DNA from: Pempheris klunzingeri
Lineage: Eukaryota; Chordata; Actinopteri; Acropomatiformes; Pempheridae
Assembly: GCF_042242105.1 (NCBI RefSeq)
Contig: NC_092016.1
Span: forward strand, 8,136,501-8,200,500
Length of the DNA stretch: 64,000 bases
Direction of reading: 5' to 3'
The translations under genes and the position numbers were made by a program. This document shows, piece after piece, positions 9,801 through 61,735 of this stretch; the stretch's first letter is position 1, and each line of letters begins with the position of its first letter. The notes under the pieces are model-generated. The model was not told the origin of the DNA, ran no database searches, and worked only from the letters and a program-made list of their open reading frames with translations.

Positions 9801-12219
9801 GATCCTGAGGAAACAGGGGAGACTGGTACCTTTTAAAAAAGCTATTTCTGAGAGCCGCAGGCCACTGGGGGCTACCAGGGCTCTGCTGCTAATAGTCTGA
9901 AGGAGCTGGGATTCCCTTTTCTGACATACGATCCAATGACATATGTACAGAGGACCATGTAAGCACGCTAGCATACACCCTGATCCTGATCTGTATCCTT
10001 TGATATTGGGTCTCTGCCAATACCAAGTACGACCCAGTACTGGATTTGCCTAAATGTTAATTTCATACGTATTTGACAAATTGCAGTGACAGCTGTAGCC
10101 TTCTAAATTTGGCCCACCTTATTTTATATGAGGTACTGATCCAAATACTGAAGGTCCTGATTCAAAACTGTAAAGCTGATCAGCTTGAATTATAATTATG
10201 ATGTGAATAAAAGTTAAACTGGGAGAATGTGCTCACATTTTTCCACATCCAAACTCTTTCTGTCACATATGGAACAAACTTGCTTGCACTAAGAAAAGCT
10301 GTGTTGCAATGCTGACAGGATGAGGTGGGCAAAACACAGTAGAGTTCAGTAAAGGAAGTATGGGATTGATAGGCTTTATTTTAACCATCACTGATCCATT
10401 ACAGTATGCCCAGATCAGCCCAGACACTGATCCTGAGACGGGCTCAAACATCCCTATGAAACACTCTATCAACCTGACAAATGTATAAAGTACTCATACT
10501 ACTAATATTCTGACTGTCCTTCATTTCAAATGATCTTCAACACACAATAGAGGCCTTATATCAACATAAAATAGGGATCTCTTATGGACATTCCAGCTAC
10601 AATGCAATTATACAGTGTGTATATCTATCGTCAGCCTGCTGTGATAATTAGAAGAATTATCCCAATTTTAAATGTCATTTTAGAAATTGCAATCTTCTGT
10701 AAAAACCTTGTGTTACGGCTTCTTTGTATGACCTTCAGGACAGTCAGTGGGCTAAAGGCATGTCACCTCAAGTGAGAAGGACAAGAGACAAAATGACAAG
10801 AAATTGGTGTAGTACATCTGGCTGTAGTGCTGTTTGCAGTGCCATCACAGAGTCCATCCTCAGTGACAGCAGTAACAGAAAGAAACTGCCCTCGTTTTTT
10901 TTTTCCATTATGATGTTTCTTCATTTAGACTATATGTAGTTGCTGGTAACTTAAGTTGACTGTTGAATGATTGATTATCACTCATGTCTTTATAGTTTGA
11001 ATACTACCTAAGAGCAAAAATGAATATCAAATATTGATAATTATCACAATGTTTCAAATTGTTTTCAAGTTTTCAACTTGCAAAAATTATACTTCAGGTA
11101 AACCTGATAGCCTGTAATACTGCAACTCTGAGCATGAATTTTAAATATACATAAAATGTGGAAGCTTATGGCTGTTTCATCCTTACAGAGTAAAACATAA
11201 AAATAACTTTTTTATGGCACATTTATTCCTAAACATGATGGACTGTACAGCCCCTTCCAATCAGAGGATGAGAAAATGGAGCAAAGAAAGATGAAATGAA
11301 GAGTGGAGAAGACCAATCACCTGAGGGGTTTTCAAGGTAACTGAAGCTGAAAGCCAATCATGATGCGGCAGGGTGTCAGGGTGTCACAGGAGGTAGCTAA
11401 TTGGGAGCAAACCCTTCCACACCACGTAGAGATTAAGACAGAGGGCTGGAACAAGTTCAATTGGTTGTGTTGAATAACTTGATAACTTTTTAGGTTTCTG
11501 TTCATTCGTGTGATCTCTACATTTCTGATTATCTACCAAGAATAACGGGCTAATTCTTCTGATCATCTCTGAGAGAACAGCAATAGTACTCGCATATAGG
11601 TGATGCAACAAGGATGGCCATAATTGGCCACAAATCAAAGCATCTCTTTTACATGTGCACCTGCTTTTTAATAGAAAATGCTGTGATGTCTCACTCTTTG
11701 AAGAGAAGCCTGGTTTTCCATTTGAAGCAACGAGTTGTAACTGGATTTGTGACAAACATGATCAAAACAAAAGACCTGCTGCAAAGCAGATTGTAAATTA
11801 GCTTGCAGAATAAAATATCTAAGGAAAATGATTAAAACTAGTTTTTGTTTACTCTGATCTTGAAAGATGTCTTCATTTGTAATTGAGTTCTGGCTAATTA
11901 CAGTTTTTGCTGCTAGCTGGGAAGAAAAGTATGAAAGCAGGGCAGTTAATACCACGGTAATGTACAAAAGCAGTGTTCATATTTCAGAAAGCTTCGTCAG
12001 CTCGACTGGTGACATTTTATTATCAAACAATATTTTTTTCCCCTGGTATATAGCATTCGGTACTTCCTGTGAGCCTGCCTGGATGTATTCTACATCTTGT
12101 ATTGAGTATGAGGATAAATTACTATCTATGACGTGACTGTGTCTTCCTCCACAACTGTCAAACCTGGAAAGTAAAAGCAATTCACAGGAGAGGGAATATT
12201 CTCACACATTTCCTAGAAG

Positions 12220-14241: not shown

Positions 14242-14730
14242 AGTGACAAGAAGCTTCAAGCTCATCTGCCTAATGAGAAGACGACTTGATTACACCTCCA
14301 CCCCCATGAATGCCAAAACCCACTCCTCTTCTAATCAGAGATCACTGCAATTATTGTTCTCTACAGGGTGGTAAAACACGACTGCACAAATGTTTCACTT
14401 TAGAGAGAGAATCTCGATCACAGGAGGCTATTAAGCAGAAACTCTTCACACTCCAACACCAAATTGTTTAATATCTTTATGATGTATGTAGAAATCATGG
14501 CTTAGCTTGAAAACAAATAGAGTTCTGTTTAAAGACAAACAGAAAACAACTATTTGTTCCTCAACATCACAATCTATTTTCTCTGCACCATCACCATATC
14601 ATGTTTCAGAGTGCCCTCTGCTGTTCTGGCAAGTACACTGCACTGTGGCCAGGACGTGTGTGTGGAATGGAAGTAACTAAAAACATATACAGATTACAGA
14701 AATCTGCTTCTTTATATCCAGATTTTTACT
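14242..14730. other. Unique sequence between the hAT element and the U4 array
   Basis: No gene or repeat seen in about 490 bp. Homology to the U4 array spacer begins abruptly at about 14731. Confidence 0.5.
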
Positions 14731-15354
14731 AAATTGTATTTATATAAGCTGTCACTACCATGCTGTGGTTCATGTGGATCACATTATGTTATCAGGTCAG
14801 CTGTTGATTACCGGTGTTTCTTACATGATTAGGCAAACATGCCTTGTGATCGCAGCTTGGTGGGACTAACTATTTCCGTGTTTGGGACGGATGCGCTTTC
14901 CAAAGAACATGTTAAAACCCATCTGACCCTGCTCTTTATTTTAGCCTGATAAAACACTGATTTCATCCACTTTAGCCTGAGTATATTTGATAAATCTGCC
15001 CAAAAACACAGAATCACCTCATCGACTTATGTAAGGCACATCCTTTTTTCAAACACTGTACTGCTCTTTTAATTTGATTAAGCTTTGCAGAACTTTTATT
15101 ATTACTATTACAATTAGATATTATATTTATTGTGTTATTATATACCATTAAATGTTATTTCATATTTGGCAATGAATCGGATTTTGCTATATAAATTAGA
15201 ATTTATAGAACAAGAGGTGAAGCCATAACATAATGTATACCATATTGTTCTTAGGTGTGGCATAGTTCTCTCTATTTACATTACAAGAAAGGCCACTTGC
15301 ACTTCTCTATATCATTGACTATTAAGTACTTTGATATTTGCTTTAAACATAATA

Positions 15355-15499
15355 TCAGTCTCCTTAAAGACCGTCAAAAATTGCCGTTGCCGACTATATT
15401 TCAAGTCGTCTAGGCGGGGTATTGGGTAAAGTTTTCAACTAGCAATAATCGCGCCTCGGATAAACCTCATAGGCTACGATACTGCCACTGCGCAAAGCT
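15355..15499 (-). ncRNA. RNU4: U4 spliceosomal snRNA, copy 1
   Basis: Read on the minus strand, the 145 nt begin AGCTTTGCGCAGTGGC and end GGAGACTGA. They align without gaps to vertebrate U4 as I remember it. Visible parts are the 5' segment that pairs with U6 (stem II), the 5' stem-loop with its kink-turn (about nt 20-52), the TGCTAGTT stem I strand, the central and 3' stem-loops, and the Sm site AATTTTTGA (nt 118-126). U4 chaperones U6 in the U4/U6.U5 tri-snRNP. A good 3' box, GTTTAAAGCAAA, lies 6 nt downstream (15337-15348). Its promoter flank (15500-16302) is unlike that of copies 2 to 6. It looks intact. Confidence 0.95.
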
Positions 15500-16302
15500 G
15501 ACGAGCTGTAAGCAGCGACGGGGAAGGGACTCCGCTCCGCACGTCTCTTTGTTATGGTTTTAAACGTGGGCGTGGCTTCAATCCCACTTTGCAATCTATC
15601 GCTACAATTATATAGAAATAAAAACCAGCCATGGGGACGTAATAAATGCATCTCTACAAAAACACACAGCTAATCTGAATCTCAAGAGAGATGATAGAGA
15701 ACGGCGATATACAGTGTCCGAAAGTGTAATCTTGTAACCATACGGTCGTATGTTCAGTCTTTATGATACATAAAACCTTTTGATGCAACTCCACGGTCGA
15801 GTCGTGTTGTAAAGTGTAATCAATATACGAATAAAGTCACAAATGAGCATTAAAAACTCACACATAACGTTAAATAAATACACAACTGGAATAAGTTATA
15901 AACGGAAATGACGTAGCCTTGCGTGCGTCGTTGTTTAACGTCCCCTTCCCTCAGCCACACCACAAACACGAATGTTTTTAACTTTAACCAAATATCAGTG
16001 GCATTTTTAACCATTTTAACCATGAGGAAACGACAGCAGAACAAACCGAAACTGCTGTTACCACGTCTGCACGGAGTCCCCAAAATAAAACATCCAAAAG
16101 ACTGGTCATTATAACTAAAACATATTCCACTGTCATGCGCCAGAAGGAAAGTAGGCATCGCATTAAACTAAGGAAGCACACGTATGACACACCACAACGT
16201 CTAATGATCGGTTCATTCAATCCACAGCACAGTTCAGCAAAATATGCTAAGTGCTACCTGTGTTTGTTAACTTGTTGATACACTTCGTATTGAACAAAAT
16301 TA
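15500..16302. other. Unique spacer between U4 copies 1 and 2
   Basis: These 803 bp are not homologous to the S spacer of the other units. The left end acts as the 5' flank of copy 1 (PSE at 15540-15560). A weak ZNF143-like match in inverted orientation (ATCCCACTTTGC, 15581-15592) lies at about -90. An open frame of about 100 codons on the minus strand (15850-16158) has no recognisable domain and is probably chance. Confidence 0.6.
15540..15560 (-). promoter_or_regulatory. PSE of U4 copy 1
   Basis: On the minus strand AACCATAACAAAGAGACG lies at about -59 to -42 from the U4 start. It matches the vertebrate proximal sequence element pattern (ACC-N-T-N-A, then AAAG-rich), which is bound by SNAPc and directs Pol II snRNA transcription. 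There is no TATA box downstream of it, as expected for Pol II U genes. Confidence 0.6.
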
Positions 16303-16447
16303 TCAGTCTCCGTAAAGACCGTCAAAAATTGCCGTTGCCGACTATATTTCAAGTCGTCTAGGCGGGGTATTGGGTAAAGTTTTCAACTAGCAATAATCGC
16401 GCCTCGGATAAACCTCATAGGCTACGATACTGCCACTGCGCAAAGCT
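16303..16447 (-). ncRNA. RNU4: U4 spliceosomal snRNA, copy 2
   Basis: 145 nt, differing from copy 1 only at nt 136 (C instead of A), which restores the CTTTACGGAG form closer to mammalian U4. The 5' flank is the S type shared with copies 3 to 6, but the 3' flank is the unique spacer. Its 3'-box-like sequence (GTTCAATACGAAG, 16283-16295, 8 nt past the end) is the weakest of the seven, so 3' processing may be less efficient. The RNA body looks intact. Confidence 0.95.
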
Positions 16448-16487
16448 GAAGAGAAAGAGATAAGGAGGGGACGTCTTTTAGAACCGC

Positions 16488-16507
16488 ACACCCCTCCGTC
16501 AGGGTTT
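16488..16507 (-). promoter_or_regulatory. PSE of U4 copy 2
   Basis: On the minus strand AAACCCTGACGGAGGGGTG lies at about -60 to -42. It is the S-type PSE shared by copies 2 to 6, weaker against the consensus than those of copies 1 and 7 but at the same distance. Confidence 0.5.
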
Positions 16508-17241
16508 ACAACCGTACTAAAGAATGAATGAAAGGGAAACCTATCAGGCTTTATACTGATATTGTGTTATTATTGTTTGGTTAAATTGCATTTATATAAT
16601 CTGTCACTACCATGCTGTGGTTTATGTGGATTACATTATGTTATTTGACTGTCAGGTCAGCTGTTGATTACCGGGGTTTCTTACATGTTTAGGCAAACAT
16701 GCCTTGTGATCGTAGCTGGGTGGGACTAACTATTTCCGTGTTTGGGCCGGAGACAGACACTGGTTTGGGCTGGATGAGATAAGAACACTCTCCAAAGGCT
16801 CAGAGAAAACATGTAATAATCAGACTAACCCTGCTCTTTATTTTAGCCTGATAAAACACTGATTTCATCCACTTTAGCCTGAGTATATTTGATAAATCTG
16901 CCCCAAAATACAGAATCACCTCACAGACTTCTCATGTAAAGCACATCCTTTTTGTTTCAAACACTGTACTGCTCTTTTAATTAACATTTGTAGAACTTTT
17001 ATTGTTATCTCATATTTGGTAATACATCTGATTCTGCTATATCAGTGAGAATTTGTAGAAAACGAAGTGAAGCCATAATATAAAATAAACTGCCTTTGAA
17101 TAAAGAAATAAATGATGCAAGTTATCATTATTTCATAACCTCTTTAAGATAATATAAGTCATTCTATCGACAGTGTCATTTTATTTGATGTTATTTTGAC
17201 GAGAATCTTCTGATAATTTTAGTGTTCTCTTTCACAAGTTA

Positions 17242-17386
17242 TCAGTCTCCTTAAAGACCGTCAAAAATTGCCGTTGCCGACTATATTTCAAGTCGTCTAG
17301 GCGGGGTATTGGGTAAAGTTTTCAACTAGCAATAATCGCGCCTCGGATAAACCTCATAGGCTACGATACTGCCACTGCGCAAAGCT
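17242..17386 (-). ncRNA. RNU4: U4 spliceosomal snRNA, copy 3
   Basis: 145 nt, identical in sequence to copies 1 and 5. A 3'-box-like motif, GTGAAAGAGAAC, lies 6 nt past the end (17224-17235). The promoter flank is S type. An octamer-like AATTGCAT (one mismatch to ATTTGCAT) lies at about -150 (17532-17539). Confidence 0.96.
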
Positions 17387-17426
17387 GAAGAGAAGCAGAT
17401 AAGGAGGGGAAGTCTTTTAGAACCGC

Positions 17427-17446
17427 ACACCCCTCCGTCAGGGTTT
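17427..17446 (-). promoter_or_regulatory. PSE of U4 copy 3
   Basis: Same S-type element and spacing as copy 2, unchanged in sequence. Confidence 0.5.
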
Positions 17447-18189
17447 ACAAGCATACTAAAGAATGAATGAAAGGGAAACCTATCAGGCTTTATACTGATA
17501 TTGTGTTATTATTGTTTGGTTAAATCAGTTAAATTGCATTTATATAATCTGTCACTACCATGCTGTGGTTTATGTGGATCACATTATGTTATTTGACTGT
17601 CAGGTCAGCTGTTGATTACCGGGGTTTCTTACATGTTTAGGCAAACATGCATTGTGATCGTAGCTGGGTGGGACTAACTATTTCCGTGTTTGGGCCGGAG
17701 ACAGACACTGGTTTGGGCTGGATGAGATAAGAACACTCTCCAAAGGCTCAGAGAAAACATGTAATAATCAGACTAACCCTGCTCTTTATTTTAGCCTGAT
17801 AAAACACTGATTTCATCCACTTTAGCCTGAGTATATTTGATAAATCTGCCCCAAAATACAGAATCACCTCACAGACTTCTCATGTAAAGCACATCCTTTT
17901 TGTTTCAAACACTGTACTGCTCTTTTAATTAACATTTGTAGAACTTTTATTGTTATCTCATATTTGGTAATACATCTGATTCTGCTATATCAGTGAGAAT
18001 TTGTAGAAAACGAAGTGAAGCCATAATATAAAATAAACTGCCTTTGAATAAAGAAATAAATGATGCAAGTTATCATTATTTCATAACCTCTTTAAGATAA
18101 TATAAGTCATTCTATCGACAGTGTCATTTTATTTGATGTTATTTTGACGAGAATCTTCTGATAATTTTAGTGTTTTCTTTCACAAGTTA

Positions 18190-18334
18190 TCAGTCTCCTT
18201 AAAGACCGTCAAAAATTGCCGTTGCCGACTATATTTCAAGTCATCTAGGCGGGGTATTGGGTAAAGTTTTCAACTAGCAATAATCGCGCCTCGGATAAAC
18301 CTCATAGGCTACGATACTGCCACTGCGCAAAGCT
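18190..18334 (-). ncRNA. RNU4: U4 spliceosomal snRNA, copy 4
   Basis: 145 nt with one private change relative to copies 1, 3 and 5: T instead of C at nt 92, in the central stem-loop region. The 3' box is GTGAAAGAAAAC, 6 nt downstream (18172-18183). The unit that follows is almost identical to the copy 5 unit, so the duplication or conversion is recent. Confidence 0.95.
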
Positions 18335-18374
18335 GAAGAGAAGCAGATAAGGAGGGGAAGTCTTTTAGAACCGC

Positions 18375-18394
18375 ACACCCCTCCGTCAGGGTTT
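18375..18394 (-). promoter_or_regulatory. PSE of U4 copy 4
   Basis: S-type element at about -60 to -41, identical to those of copies 3 and 5. Confidence 0.5.
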
Positions 18395-19137
18395 ACAAGC
18401 ATACTAAAGAATGAATGAAAGGGAAACCTATCAGGCTTTATACTGATATTGTGTTATTATTGTTTGGTTAAATCAGTTAAATTGCATTTATATAATCTGT
18501 CACTACCATGCTGTGGTTTATGTGGATCACATTATGTTATTTGACTGTCAGGTCAGCTGTTGATTACCGGGGTTTCTTACATGTTTAGGCAAACATGCAT
18601 TGTGATCGTAGCTGGGTGGGACTAACTATTTCCGTGTTTGGGCCGGTGATAGACACTGGTTTGGGCTGGATGAGATAAGAACACTCTCCAAAGGCTCAGA
18701 GAAAACATGTAATAATCAGGCTAACCCTGCTCTTTATTTTAGCCTGATAAAACACTGATTTCATCCACTTTAACCTGAGTATATTTGATAAATCTGCCCC
18801 AAAATACAGAATCACCTCACAGACTTCTCATGTAAAGCACATCCTTTTTGTTTCAAACACTGTACTGCTCTTTTAATGAACATTTGTAGAACTTTTATTG
18901 TTATCTCATATTTGGTAATACATCTGATTCTGCTGTATAAGTGAGAATTTGTAGAAAAAGAAGTGAAGCCATAATATAAAATAAGCTGCCTTTGAATAAA
19001 GAAATAAATGACACAAGTTATCATTGTTTCATAACCTCTTTAAGGTAATATAAATCATTCTATTGACAGTGTCATTTCATTCTATGTTACTTTTATGAGA
19101 ACCTTCTAATAATTTTAGCGTTTTCTTTCACAATTTA

Positions 19138-19282
19138 TCAGTCTCCTTAAAGACCGTCAAAAATTGCCGTTGCCGACTATATTTCAAGTCGTCTAGGCGG
19201 GGTATTGGGTAAAGTTTTCAACTAGCAATAATCGCGCCTCGGATAAACCTCATAGGCTACGATACTGCCACTGCGCAAAGCT
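19138..19282 (-). ncRNA. RNU4: U4 spliceosomal snRNA, copy 5
   Basis: 145 nt, identical to copies 1 and 3. The 3' box is GTGAAAGAAAAC at 19120-19131, 6 nt downstream. The spacer on its 5' side is almost identical to that of copy 4. Confidence 0.96.
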
Positions 19283-19322
19283 GAAGACAAGCAGATAAGG
19301 AGGGGAAGTCTTTTAGAACCGC

Positions 19323-19342
19323 ACACCCCTCCGTCAGGGTTT
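19323..19342 (-). promoter_or_regulatory. PSE of U4 copy 5
   Basis: S-type element at about -60 to -41, same as copies 3 and 4. Confidence 0.5.
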
Positions 19343-20085
19343 ACAAGCATACTAAAGAATGAATGAAAGGGAAACCTATCAGGCTTTATACTGATATTGT
19401 GTTATTATTGTTTGGTTAAATCAGTTAAATTGCATTTATATAATCTGTCACTACCATGCTGTGGTTTATGTGGATCACATTATGTTATTTGACTGTCAGG
19501 TCAGCTGTTGATTACCGGGGTTTCTTACATGTTTAGGCAAACATGCATTGTGATCGTAGCTGGGTGGGACTAACTATTTCCGTGTTTGGGCCGGTGATAG
19601 ACACTGGTTTGGGCTGGATGAGATAAGAACACTCTCCAAAGGCTCAGAGAAAACATGTAATAATCAGGCTAACCCTGCTCTTTATTTTAGCCTGATAAAA
19701 CACTGATTTCATCCACTTTAACCTGAGTATATTTGATAAATCTGCCCCAAAATACAGAATCACCTCACAGACTTCTCATGTAAAGCACATCCTTTTTGTT
19801 TCAAACACTGTACTGCTCTTTTAATGAACATTTGTAGAACTTTTATTGTTATCTCATATTTGGTAATACATCTGATTCTGCTGTATAAGTGAGAATTTGT
19901 AGAAAAAGAAGTGAAGCCATAATATAAAATAAGCTGCCTTTGAATAAAGAAATAAATGACACAAGTTATCATTGTTTCATAACCTCTTTAAGGTAATATA
20001 AATCATTCTGTTGACAGTGTCATTTCATTCTATGTTACTTTTATCAGAACCTTCTAATAATGTTAGCGTTTTCTTTCACAATTTA

Positions 20086-20230
20086 TCAGTCTCCTTAGAG
20101 ACCGTCAAAAATTGCCGTTGCCGACTATATTTCAAGTCGTCTAGGCGGGGTATTGGGTAAAGTTTTCAACTAGCAATAATCGCGCCTCGGATAAACCTCA
20201 TAGGCTACGATACTGCCACTGCGCAAAGCT
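20086..20230 (-). ncRNA. RNU4: U4 spliceosomal snRNA, copy 6
   Basis: 145 nt, differing from copies 1, 3 and 5 at nt 133 (C instead of T, giving CTCTAAGGAG as in copy 7). The 3' box is GTGAAAGAAAAC at 20068-20079. The spacer on its 5' side starts as S type and diverges towards copy 7, so this unit marks the right edge of the homogenised block. Confidence 0.95.
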
Positions 20231-20270
20231 GAAGAGAAAGAGATAAGGAGGGGAAGTCTTTTAGAACCGC

Positions 20271-20290
20271 ACACCCCTCCGTCAGGGTTT
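20271..20290 (-). promoter_or_regulatory. PSE of U4 copy 6
   Basis: S-type element at about -60 to -41. Confidence 0.5.
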
Positions 20291-21026
20291 ACAAGCGTAC
20301 TAAAGAATGAATGAAAGGGAAACCTATCAGGCTTTATACTGATATTGTGTTATTATTGTTTGGTTAAATCAGTTAAGTTGCATTTATATAATCTGTCACT
20401 ACCATGCTGTGGTTTATGTGGATCACATTATGTTATTTGAGGTTATTTCAGGTCAGCTGTTGATTACCGGGGTTTCTTACATGATTAGGCAAACATGCAT
20501 TGTGATCGTAGCTGGGTGGGACTAACTATTTCCGTGTTTGGGCCGGAGACAGACATCGGTTTGGGCTGCATGAGACTAAAAACACTCTCCAAAGAAGAAT
20601 CAGACTAACCCTGCTCTTTATTTTAGCCTGATAAAACACTGATTTCATCCACTTTAGCATATATTTGAGTATATTTGATAAATCTGCCCAAAAACACAGA
20701 ATCACCTCACAGACTTCTCCTATAAAGCACATCCTTTTTGTTTCAAACACTGTACTGCTCTTTTAATTACATTAACATTATTAATGTTATTCTCTCATAT
20801 TTGGTAATAAACCTGATTATGCTTTTAAGTGAGATAAAGTGAAGCCACAAAATAAAATACACTGTGTCTTTAAATGAATAAACACATGACGCAAGTTACC
20901 ATTATGTCGTCACTTCTTTGGGGTTCTAGTGTAAATTCTCTCCCTCTATCGGCAGAGTCTATTCATTCTTCAATACTACGTTCATGTATCTGTACCAGTA
21001 CGACTTACGTTTCTTTCAACAAATTA

Positions 21027-21171
21027 TCAGTCTCCTTAGAGACCGTCAAAAATTGCCATTGCCGACTATATTTCAAGTCGTCAAGGCGGGGTATTGGGTA
21101 AAGTTTTCAACTAGCAATAATCGCGCCTCGGATAAACCTCATAGGCTACGATACTGCCACTGCGCAAAGCT
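21027..21171 (-). ncRNA. RNU4: U4 spliceosomal snRNA, copy 7
   Basis: 145 nt and the most distinct copy. Relative to copies 1, 3 and 5 it has T at nt 89, T at nt 114 and C at nt 133. Nt 114 and 133 move it towards the mammalian sequence, so it may be closest to the ancestral gene. The 3' box is GTTGAAAGAAAC, 6 nt past the end (21009-21020). Its 5' flank is unique and carries the best promoter of the array: a strong PSE and a ZNF143-like distal element. It is the first copy in the direction of transcription. Confidence 0.95.
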
Positions 21172-21211: not shown

Positions 21212-21231
21212 CACAGTCTTTGATTACGGTA
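21212..21231 (-). promoter_or_regulatory. PSE of U4 copy 7
   Basis: On the minus strand TACCGTAATCAAAGACTGTG lies at about -60 to -41. It is the closest of the seven to the vertebrate PSE, with ACCGTAA followed by AAAG. The spacing is the same as in the other copies although the surrounding sequence is unrelated, which supports function. Confidence 0.65.
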
Positions 21232-21366
21232 TTTCGGCTCTATTCAAAACAAACACACGATCATCTGCCCAGAATAAAAGCTATACTCTATACCGAATCG
21301 CTGAATGTGAATCATTCATTCAATCATTCATTTAAAGTTTAAATAGATTTAAACCTGTCGCCAAGA

Positions 21367-21384
21367 CGCAATGCATCATGGGAT
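21367..21384 (-). promoter_or_regulatory. ZNF143/Staf-like distal element of U4 copy 7
   Basis: On the minus strand ATCCCATGATGCATTGCG matches 16 of 18 positions of the Staf-binding-site consensus YWCCCRNMATSCMYYRCR as I remember it. It lies at about -196 to -213 from the U4 start, the usual place of the distal sequence element of vertebrate snRNA genes. The overlapping ATGCAT could also serve as a poor octamer. I see no equally good site upstream of copies 1 to 6. Confidence 0.6.
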
Positions 21385-60252: not shown

Positions 60253-61735
60253 CAGTGCTGTGAAAAAGTATTTGCCCCTTTACAGATTTCTTCTGTTTTT
60301 GCTTTATTGTCACACTTACATGTTTCAGATCATCAAACACATTTTAATATCACACAAAGATAACCTGAGTAAATACAAAAAGCAGCTTTTAAATGATGAT
60401 TTCATTTATTAAGGGAAAAAAGCTATCCAAACCAACCTGGTCCTATGTGAAAAAGTAATTACCCCCCCTTGTTAAATCATGAATTAACTGTGATTAACCA
60501 CATGAAAGCTGAGTTCAATTTCACTAGCCAGACAGACAAGAAACAAAGCCATTGACATCTATCAGTCTGGAAAGGGTTAAAAAGCCATTTCTAAGGCTTT
60601 GGGACTCCAGCGAACAACAGTGAGAGCCATTATCCCCGAATGGAGAAATCATGGAACAGTGGTGAACCTTCCCAGGGGTGGCAAGCCTACCAAAATGACT
60701 CCAAGAGCGCATCGACGACTCATCCAGGAGGTCACAAAAGAACCCTGAACAACATCTAAAGCACTGCAGGCCTCACTTGCTTCAGTTAAGGTCAGTGTTC
60801 ATGATTCAACAATAAGAAAGAGACTGGGCAAAAATGGCCTCCATGGGAGAGTTCCAAGGAGAAAACCACTGCTGACCAAAAAGAACACAAAGGCACATCT
60901 CACATTTGCCAAAAAACATCTTGATGATCCCCCACACTTTTGGGAAAATATTCTGTGGACTGACGAGACAAAAGTGGAACTTTTTGGAAGGTGTGCGTCC
61001 CGTTACATCTGGCGTAAAACTAACACAGCATTTCGGAGAAAGAACATCATACCGACAGTCAAACATGGTAGTGGTAGTGTGATGGTCTGGGGCTGCTTTG
61101 CTGCTTCAAGACCTGGACAACTTGCCGTAATTGATGGAACCATGAATTCTGCTCTCTACCAGAAAATCCTGAAGGAGAATGTCCAGCCATCAGTTCGTGA
61201 CCTTAAGCTCAAGCGCACTTGGGTTATGCAGCAGGACAATGATCCGAAGCACACCAGCAAGTCCACCTCCGAATAGCTCAAAAAAAACAAAGTGAAGGTT
61301 TTGGAGTGACCTAGTCCAAGTCCGGACTTAAATCCAATTGAGATGCTGTAGCATGACCTTAAACAGGCCGTTCATGCTCGAAAACCCTCCAATGTGGCTG
61401 AATTAAGACAATTCTGCAAAGAAGAGTGGGCCAAAATTCCCCCACAGCGATGTGAAAGACTCATTGCCAGTTATTGCAAACGCTTGGTTGCAGTTGTTGC
61501 CACCAAGGGTTATTAGGTTTAGGGGGCAATTACTTTTTCACATAGGGCCAGGTTGGTTTGGATAGCTTTTGTCCCTTAATGAATAAAATCATCATTTAAA
61601 AACTGCTTTTTGTATTTACTCAGGTTATCTTTGTGTGATATTAAAATTTGTTTGATGACCTGAAACATGTAAGTGTGACGAAAAAGCAAAAACAGAAGAA
61701 ATCTTTAAGGGGGCAAATACTTTTTCACAGCACTG
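60253..61735 (+). mobile_element. Tc1/mariner-type DNA transposon, inactive copy
   Basis: The 1,483-bp element lies between two TA dinucleotides (60251-60252 and 61736-61737), the Tc1 target duplication. Terminal inverted repeats of about 215 bp (60253-60468 and 61522-61735) start with CAGTGCTGTGAAAAAGTATT. Each repeat has a second GTGAAAAAGTAATT-like copy at its inner end, so the structure is the IR/DR type known from fish Tc1 elements. A transposase relic lies between. The subfamily is not named. The well-matched repeats point to a moderately young insertion. Confidence 0.93.
60506..61516 (+). pseudogene. Tc1-type DDE transposase, inactivated
   Basis: A single frame runs to the natural TAG at 61514-61516 without a frameshift. 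It shows the HTH-linker part (GLQRTTVRAII, NLPRGGKPTKMTPRAHRRL) and then the catalytic domain: ILWTDETKVELFG (first Asp codon 60962-60964), VMVWGCFAA, MQQDNDPKHTS (second Asp) and SPDLNPIEML (third acidic residue, Glu as in the DD34E class). Five in-frame stops break it: 60578, 60746, 61274, 61307 and 61349. The last three replace Trp codons of the family as I remember it. The start codon and first helix-turn-helix part appear to be deleted. It cannot make active transposase. Confidence 0.9.

Follow-up and report, generated by a model that had tools for sequence, protein, structure and literature searches.

Maternal- and somatic-type small nuclear RNAs (snRNAs) are said to have been distinguished in zebrafish by Pagano, Dekker et al. 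in 2020 (bioRxiv 10.1101/858944, cited in PMC11417395). According to PMC11075544, zebrafish maternal U1 and U6 genes crowd Region-2 of Chr4, and the two U4 genes in Region-1 are somatic. In Xenopus and chicken the U4 isoforms switch in development, as stated in PMC4291461 (citing Lund and Dahlberg 1987; Korf et al. 1988). Here we describe a cluster of seven U4 genes in a 64,000-nt stretch of the Pempheris klunzingeri genome (the window; C5:8136501-8200500 of an assembly of 646 Mb in 439 contigs), together with a second class of U4 genes found on C13 of the same genome. We put at roughly three in four the probability that the window holds the canonical U4 genes, likely of somatic type, of an snRNA system with two classes. 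The array itself is already known in kind and is ordinary as a gene cluster; the interesting part is that the two U4 classes and the two U6 classes are matched in a base change, differing together at the base pair that connects them. The array represents one half of this natural experiment.

An Rfam covariance scan of the window gave exactly seven matches above the gathering score, every one of them to U4 (RF00015, gathering cut-off 46 bits). The matches covered model positions 1-138 on the minus strand and scored 122.5-130.4 bits (E 1.7e-29 to 2.1e-27). A preliminary description of this DNA had claimed seven intact U4 genes of 145 nt and had proposed a covariance-model search as a check; the claim was borne out, and the copies scored as full-length U4 and not as pseudogenes. 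In the Rfam alignment small gaps were placed in the unpaired linker and in the loop of the 3' stem-loop. The 145-mers vary at nt 89, 92, 114, 133 and 136 only, which are exactly the positions that had been put forward as copy-specific, and copies 1, 3 and 5 are identical. The Sm site AATTTTTG (nt 118-125) and the residues U31 G32 A33 / G43 A44, which we take to be those of the kink-turn (K-turn) of the U4 5' stem-loop, were invariant across 16/16 aligned rows; this alignment consists of the five window variants and 11 of 12 rows from C13, the twelfth of which differs only by an N placeholder. In a predicted duplex between copy 7 and a U6 from C7 of the same genome, 11 of the 12 stem II positions paired (-19.8 kcal/mol) and stem I reached -6.7 kcal/mol, in agreement with the earlier statement that the Sm site and the U6-pairing segments are kept. 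With vertebrate major-class U4 (RF00015) the window genes share the full-length covariance match, the Sm site, the U6-pairing segments, the K-turn residues, a proximal sequence element (PSE) near -60 and a 3'-box-like motif, but they differ in that seven of them stand in one cluster, under three kinds of upstream sequence. From the high covariance scores, the kept Sm site, K-turn and U6-pairing segments, the PSEs in 6/7 copies and the contrast between genes and flanks against copy 7 (see below), we predict that the seven genes are intact and probably function as U4.

U4atac, of the minor spliceosome, was considered and rejected, as the Rfam scan gave U4 for 7/7 window copies and for the C13 copies in three scanned C13 pieces. 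It is hardly credible that the seven copies are U4-derived pseudogenes that were passively spread. Turnover of the locus is visible in a nearby degenerate U4 and in a relic of the repeat unit, but a pseudogene array was rejected on the covariance scores and the retained elements, and the PSE position and the smaller number of changes than in the flanks, relative to copy 7, speak against it as well. Furthermore, with the window copies dead, the assembly would be left without a canonical U4, none other being present among the 40 candidates scored of the 57 found in the DNA search described in the next paragraph.

In a genome search with RF00015, 42 of 38,909 candidates were scored, seven on C5 and 35 on C13. 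The region C13:7084000-7184000 was then read directly for U4 copies, minus one base. It carries an array of 50 copies at 7124439-7168248, two of which sit 5.4 kb before the other 48. The copies are mostly 798 or 790 nt apart, 31 of them are identical over 145 nt, and one more, outlying copy is located at 6937090. A DNA search with a window gene gave 57 first-look candidates, and the 40 that were scored all lay on C5 or C13, with no further canonical U4 among them; this search also missed the degenerate U4 of the window and is therefore blind to decayed copies, so that others may exist elsewhere. The C13 U4 differs from copy 7 at 31/145 sites, and some of these differences compensate each other in stems. 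Both sides are changed at pairs 23/49, 27/46, 34/42 and 92/109, and partly at 89/112, and the Sm site and the K-turn residues are retained. When the U4 alignment was compared with shuffle controls, the paired cells, the double-changed cells and the covariation score were above 500/500 shuffles, values that are inflated by the close relationship of the rows. The array in the window had been presented as exceptional, a view that finds no support: besides the divergent U4 array of 50 copies, the same genome has clusters of several copies each for U1, U2, U5 and U6, and two developmental snRNA classes are reported for zebrafish (PMC11075544). The C13 U4 unit also contains a stretch with ACATGCAAAAGG / ACATGCAGAGGG that occurs twice within it in diverged form (73-81% alike over 56-79 nt), perhaps as a doubled distal element.

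The U6 genes fall into two classes as well. The search with RF00026 gave 34 U6 matches, ten of them canonical (eight on C7, one of which has a diverged 5' end, one on C13 and one on C18), the other 24 forming a tandem array on C1. Thirty of these matches were read, namely the ten canonical ones and 20 of the C1 array. At nt 67 a C is present in 10/10 canonical copies and an A in 20/20 of the C1 copies read, a single one of which has nt 66 changed as well. The change at nt 67 is the sole difference between the class sequences in a U6 core of 61 nt, from CGAUACAGAG to GAAGCGUU. In stem II, U6 nt 67 faces U4 nt 7, which is a G in 7/7 window copies and a U in 50/50 copies of the C13 array. The predicted stem II energies of the window U4 were -19.8 kcal/mol with the C7 U6 and -13.3 kcal/mol with the C1 U6, and those of the C13 U4 were -15.8 and -18.5 kcal/mol, respectively, so that the matched partner was favoured for both U4 and both U6 classes. 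When U4 1-64 was folded jointly with the U6 core, the window U4 reached -39.3 with the C7 U6 and -32.8 with the C1 U6, and the C13 U4 reached -29.8 and -32.5, respectively. We propose, tentatively and as a doubtful extension of these results, that there are two mutually preferred U4/U6 sets (the window U4 with canonical U6, and the C13 U4 with the C1 U6), which would be kept apart in part by the stem II swap (G7-C67 to U7-A67). The tri-snRNPs (small nuclear ribonucleoproteins) of eggs and of adults might then assemble from matched partners even with both sets present at the maternal-to-zygotic switch. In the strict form of this proposal each U4 would meet only its partner U6. The literature searched yielded nothing on matched U4/U6 classes in fish, although such a paper may still exist.

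The alternative, to which we give a little less than an even chance, is that the match between U4 nt 7 and U6 nt 67 is a coincidence or has a small effect, and that both U4 classes work with both U6 classes. A single pair is concerned, and a change that restores pairing with the C13 U4 has a rough probability of 0.016 (3/183 of the single changes in the 61-nt core). In addition, the duplex of the C13 U4 with the C1 U6 retains a C5-A mismatch, and the mixed stem II duplexes still reach the -13.3 and -15.8 kcal/mol given above. In the joint folds each U4 prefers its matched U6, though the C1 U6 is indifferent (-32.8 with the window U4 and -32.5 with the C13 U4), and our confidence in separate matched sets is lower because of this. 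Coincidence is opposed by the restriction of the class difference to nt 67 in all the C1 copies read, and by the stem II energies, in which each class favours its match.

With regard to the stage of expression, we consider the window genes to be somatic-type because of the analogy with the zebrafish and Xenopus classes. Somatic cells would most likely draw on the small canonical clusters, and the oocyte and the early embryo on the large divergent arrays. The window U4 RNA would pair with canonical U6, whose genes lie mainly on C7, to form the U4/U6 di-snRNP, and the second class is made up of the 50-copy C13 U4 (stem II nt 7 G to U) matched by the 24-copy C1 U6 (C to A). The reverse assignment, with the window array as maternal and the C13 array as somatic, is quite improbable. 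The sequence holds nothing that fixes the stage, but in zebrafish a heterochromatic block contains many maternal U1 and U6 genes and the two Region-1 U4 genes are somatic (PMC11075544), and the window U4 pairs best with canonical U6. As in zebrafish, two sequence classes are found in separate clusters (for U4, seven copies on C5, and 50 plus one on C13); the genome described here may differ in its 50-copy divergent U4 array and in the matched change at U4 nt 7 and U6 nt 67, and it has no clear second U2 class. With Xenopus and chicken, where the U4 isoforms are developmentally switched, it shares the presence of more than one U4 isoform in a vertebrate.

For U1, U5 and U2 the match counts are lower bounds, as the best candidates alone were scored. 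U1 gave 34 matches on C9 and eight on C4, and one C9 copy differed from the two C4 copies read at 8/164 sites. U5 gave 45 matches on C20, 44 of them within one 40-kb stretch, and two on C11. Two sequence classes were seen for U4, U6, U1 and U5. With the two classes it can be asked whether the spliceosomes of eggs and of somatic cells draw on different U4/U6 pools. They also provide natural U4 variants that can be compared with the human RNU4-2 variants linked to ReNU syndrome (PMC13083260). As a separate observation, U1 and U2 matches are interleaved at C4:2.57-3.08 Mb, with many low-scoring U2-like copies.

The promoters of the window genes were analyzed with a PSE matrix built from two genes each for U6, U5 and U1 in the same genome, with U4 excluded and the training 18-mers picked by eye. 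A PSE was found at -60/-61 in 6/7 window copies. A 3'-box-like GTN(1-2)AAAG lies downstream of 6/7 copies, and copy 2 has GTTCAATACG instead. The earlier statement that PSE- and 3'-box-like motifs lie at fixed distances thus held for six of the seven copies in each case, but it failed for the PSE of copy 7 when judged by the matrix and for the 3' box of copy 2, and the promoters are not uniform. A strong distal element common to all seven copies was looked for (octamer and Staf-binding site, SBS) and was not found. Copies 2-6 have an SBS-like site with three mismatches to the consensus (0.19 expected per 800 bases), and a one-mismatch octamer occurs upstream of each copy (0.61 expected); neither the octamers nor the three-mismatch SBS sites are far above chance. 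From these signals, the seven canonical-class U4 genes, all on the minus strand, would be driven by snRNA-type promoters (PSE, 3' box) of RNA polymerase II. With the same matrix the array-class genes gave weak matches, namely 5.8 bits at -60 for the C13 U4, 7.3 at -65 for the C20 U5, 6.0 at -62 for the C9 U1 (with a better one at -23) and 1.5 at -66 for the C1 U6. In the array-class U4, U6 and U5 (one gene each) the region from -60 to -66 reads ACCG(G/C), versus ACCCTGA-like in the canonical genes, which perhaps marks a second promoter class.

The genes of the cluster are spaced 939-948 nt apart. The four intergenic blocks from copy 2 to copy 6 show 94-99.5% identity among themselves, and the one between copies 6 and 7 matches them at 85-87%. 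The sequence upstream of the genes is of three kinds, one common to copies 2-6 and one each, unrelated, for copies 1 and 7. Given the likeness of the shared blocks, the unrelated block that separates copy 1 from copy 2 and a diverged relic of the unit on the far side of copy 1, the array probably grew by exchange of a unit of about 948 nt. Copies 2-7 would have spread in this way; the edge copies 1 and 7 have different upstream sequences. The unrelated block (15500-16302) is 803 nt long, as are three of the shared blocks; kinship through this equal length was rejected, as the alignment score was 250 against 100 shuffles with a mean of 222, a standard deviation of 15 and a maximum of 255. When copies 3-6 were compared with copy 7, the genes differed at 2-4/145 sites, against 9-10% of the aligned positions in the compared intergenic blocks (Fisher p 2e-4 to 7e-3 in four comparisons, which are mutually dependent). 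It could be argued that copy 7 alone, or copies 1 and 7, are the working genes, and that copies 2-6 are a redundant or silent local amplification. Copy 7 has the top score, a retained pair 89/112 and an SBS-like distal element with two mismatches, and the blocks upstream of copies 2-5 are nearly alike, copy 6 having the 85-87% one. Nevertheless, copies 2-6 carry the strongest PSE match among the seven and retain the main elements, and we regard this explanation as improbable.

Several observations weigh against the reading of the window array as intact canonical genes of a two-class system, in addition to the points on the joint folds, the remaining mismatch and U6 nt 66 given above. Pair 89/112 is lost in copies 1-6, and copy 7 is the one that retains it. 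In shuffle-controlled folding copy 3 was weaker (z -1.3) than copy 7 (z -2.5). The PSE matrix misses copy 7, which carries ATACCGTAATCAAAG at -61, an element that resembles the vertebrate PSE. Between near-neighbour copies the genes differ at 1/145 sites and the flanks at 0.5-3.1%, so that the genes are not less diverged there, and because near neighbours lack the contrast between gene and flank, the sameness of the genes may partly stem from recent exchange. On the side of C13, the number of double-changed pairs was reached by 150/500 shuffles and is unexceptional, further pair types were fewer than in the shuffles (12 versus 15.1), the C13 U4 loses pair 20/52, and its 5' half folded alone adopts a different minimum-energy shape. 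U2 does not follow the pattern, as 26 of its 29 matches lie on C4 across several score bands, with no separate high-scoring array among them. Finally, the copy numbers depend on the assembly.

Table 1. Features of the U4 cluster and its surroundings, in window positions.
Feature	Position	Strand	Details
U4 copy 1	15355..15499	-	RF00015 124.3 bits; same 145 nt as copies 3 and 5; upstream sequence its own
U4 copy 2	16303..16447	-	RF00015 123.5 bits; C136; 3' flank differs from copies 3-6
U4 copy 3	17242..17386	-	RF00015 124.3 bits
U4 copy 4	18190..18334	-	RF00015 122.5 bits; T92, U.G pair retained
U4 copy 5	19138..19282	-	RF00015 124.3 bits
U4 copy 6	20086..20230	-	RF00015 126.2 bits; C133
U4 copy 7	21027..21171	-	RF00015 130.4 bits, top score; T89, T114; pair 89/112 retained; own upstream sequence
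Tandem array of ~948-nt units (gene and shared intergenic block), copies 2-7	16303..21171	-	Block alignments
PSE of copy 1, from -61	15543..15560	-	10.4 bits, reached by 1.7e-4 of window positions
PSE of copy 2, from -60	16490..16507	-	15.2 bits, reached by 3.9e-5 of window positions
PSE of copy 3, from -60	17429..17446	-	15.2 bits, 3.9e-5
PSE of copy 4, from -60	18377..18394	-	15.2 bits, 3.9e-5
PSE of copy 5, from -60	19325..19342	-	15.2 bits, 3.9e-5
PSE of copy 6, from -60	20273..20290	-	15.2 bits, 3.9e-5
PSE-like ATACCGTAATCAAAGACT of copy 7, from -61	21215..21232	-	By eye only; no match with the matrix
SBS/ZNF143-like distal element of copy 7, from -213	21367..21384	-	Two mismatches to consensus
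Relic of intergenic unit, downstream of copy 1	14730..15233	-	79-80% over 402-431 columns; 82-84% over 74 nt
Degenerate U4 pseudogene, ~4 kb beyond the array	11014..11139	-	Permissive scan 28.8 bits, below cut-off 46; 75% over 61 nt

Host genes in the window were looked for with a codon-usage score and with Pfam on ten chosen open reading frames, a weak test that gave only a Tc1/Tc3-like transposase domain (Pfam HTH_Tnp_Tc3_2). The open frame that carries this domain is located at window positions 60749-61276, on the plus strand.

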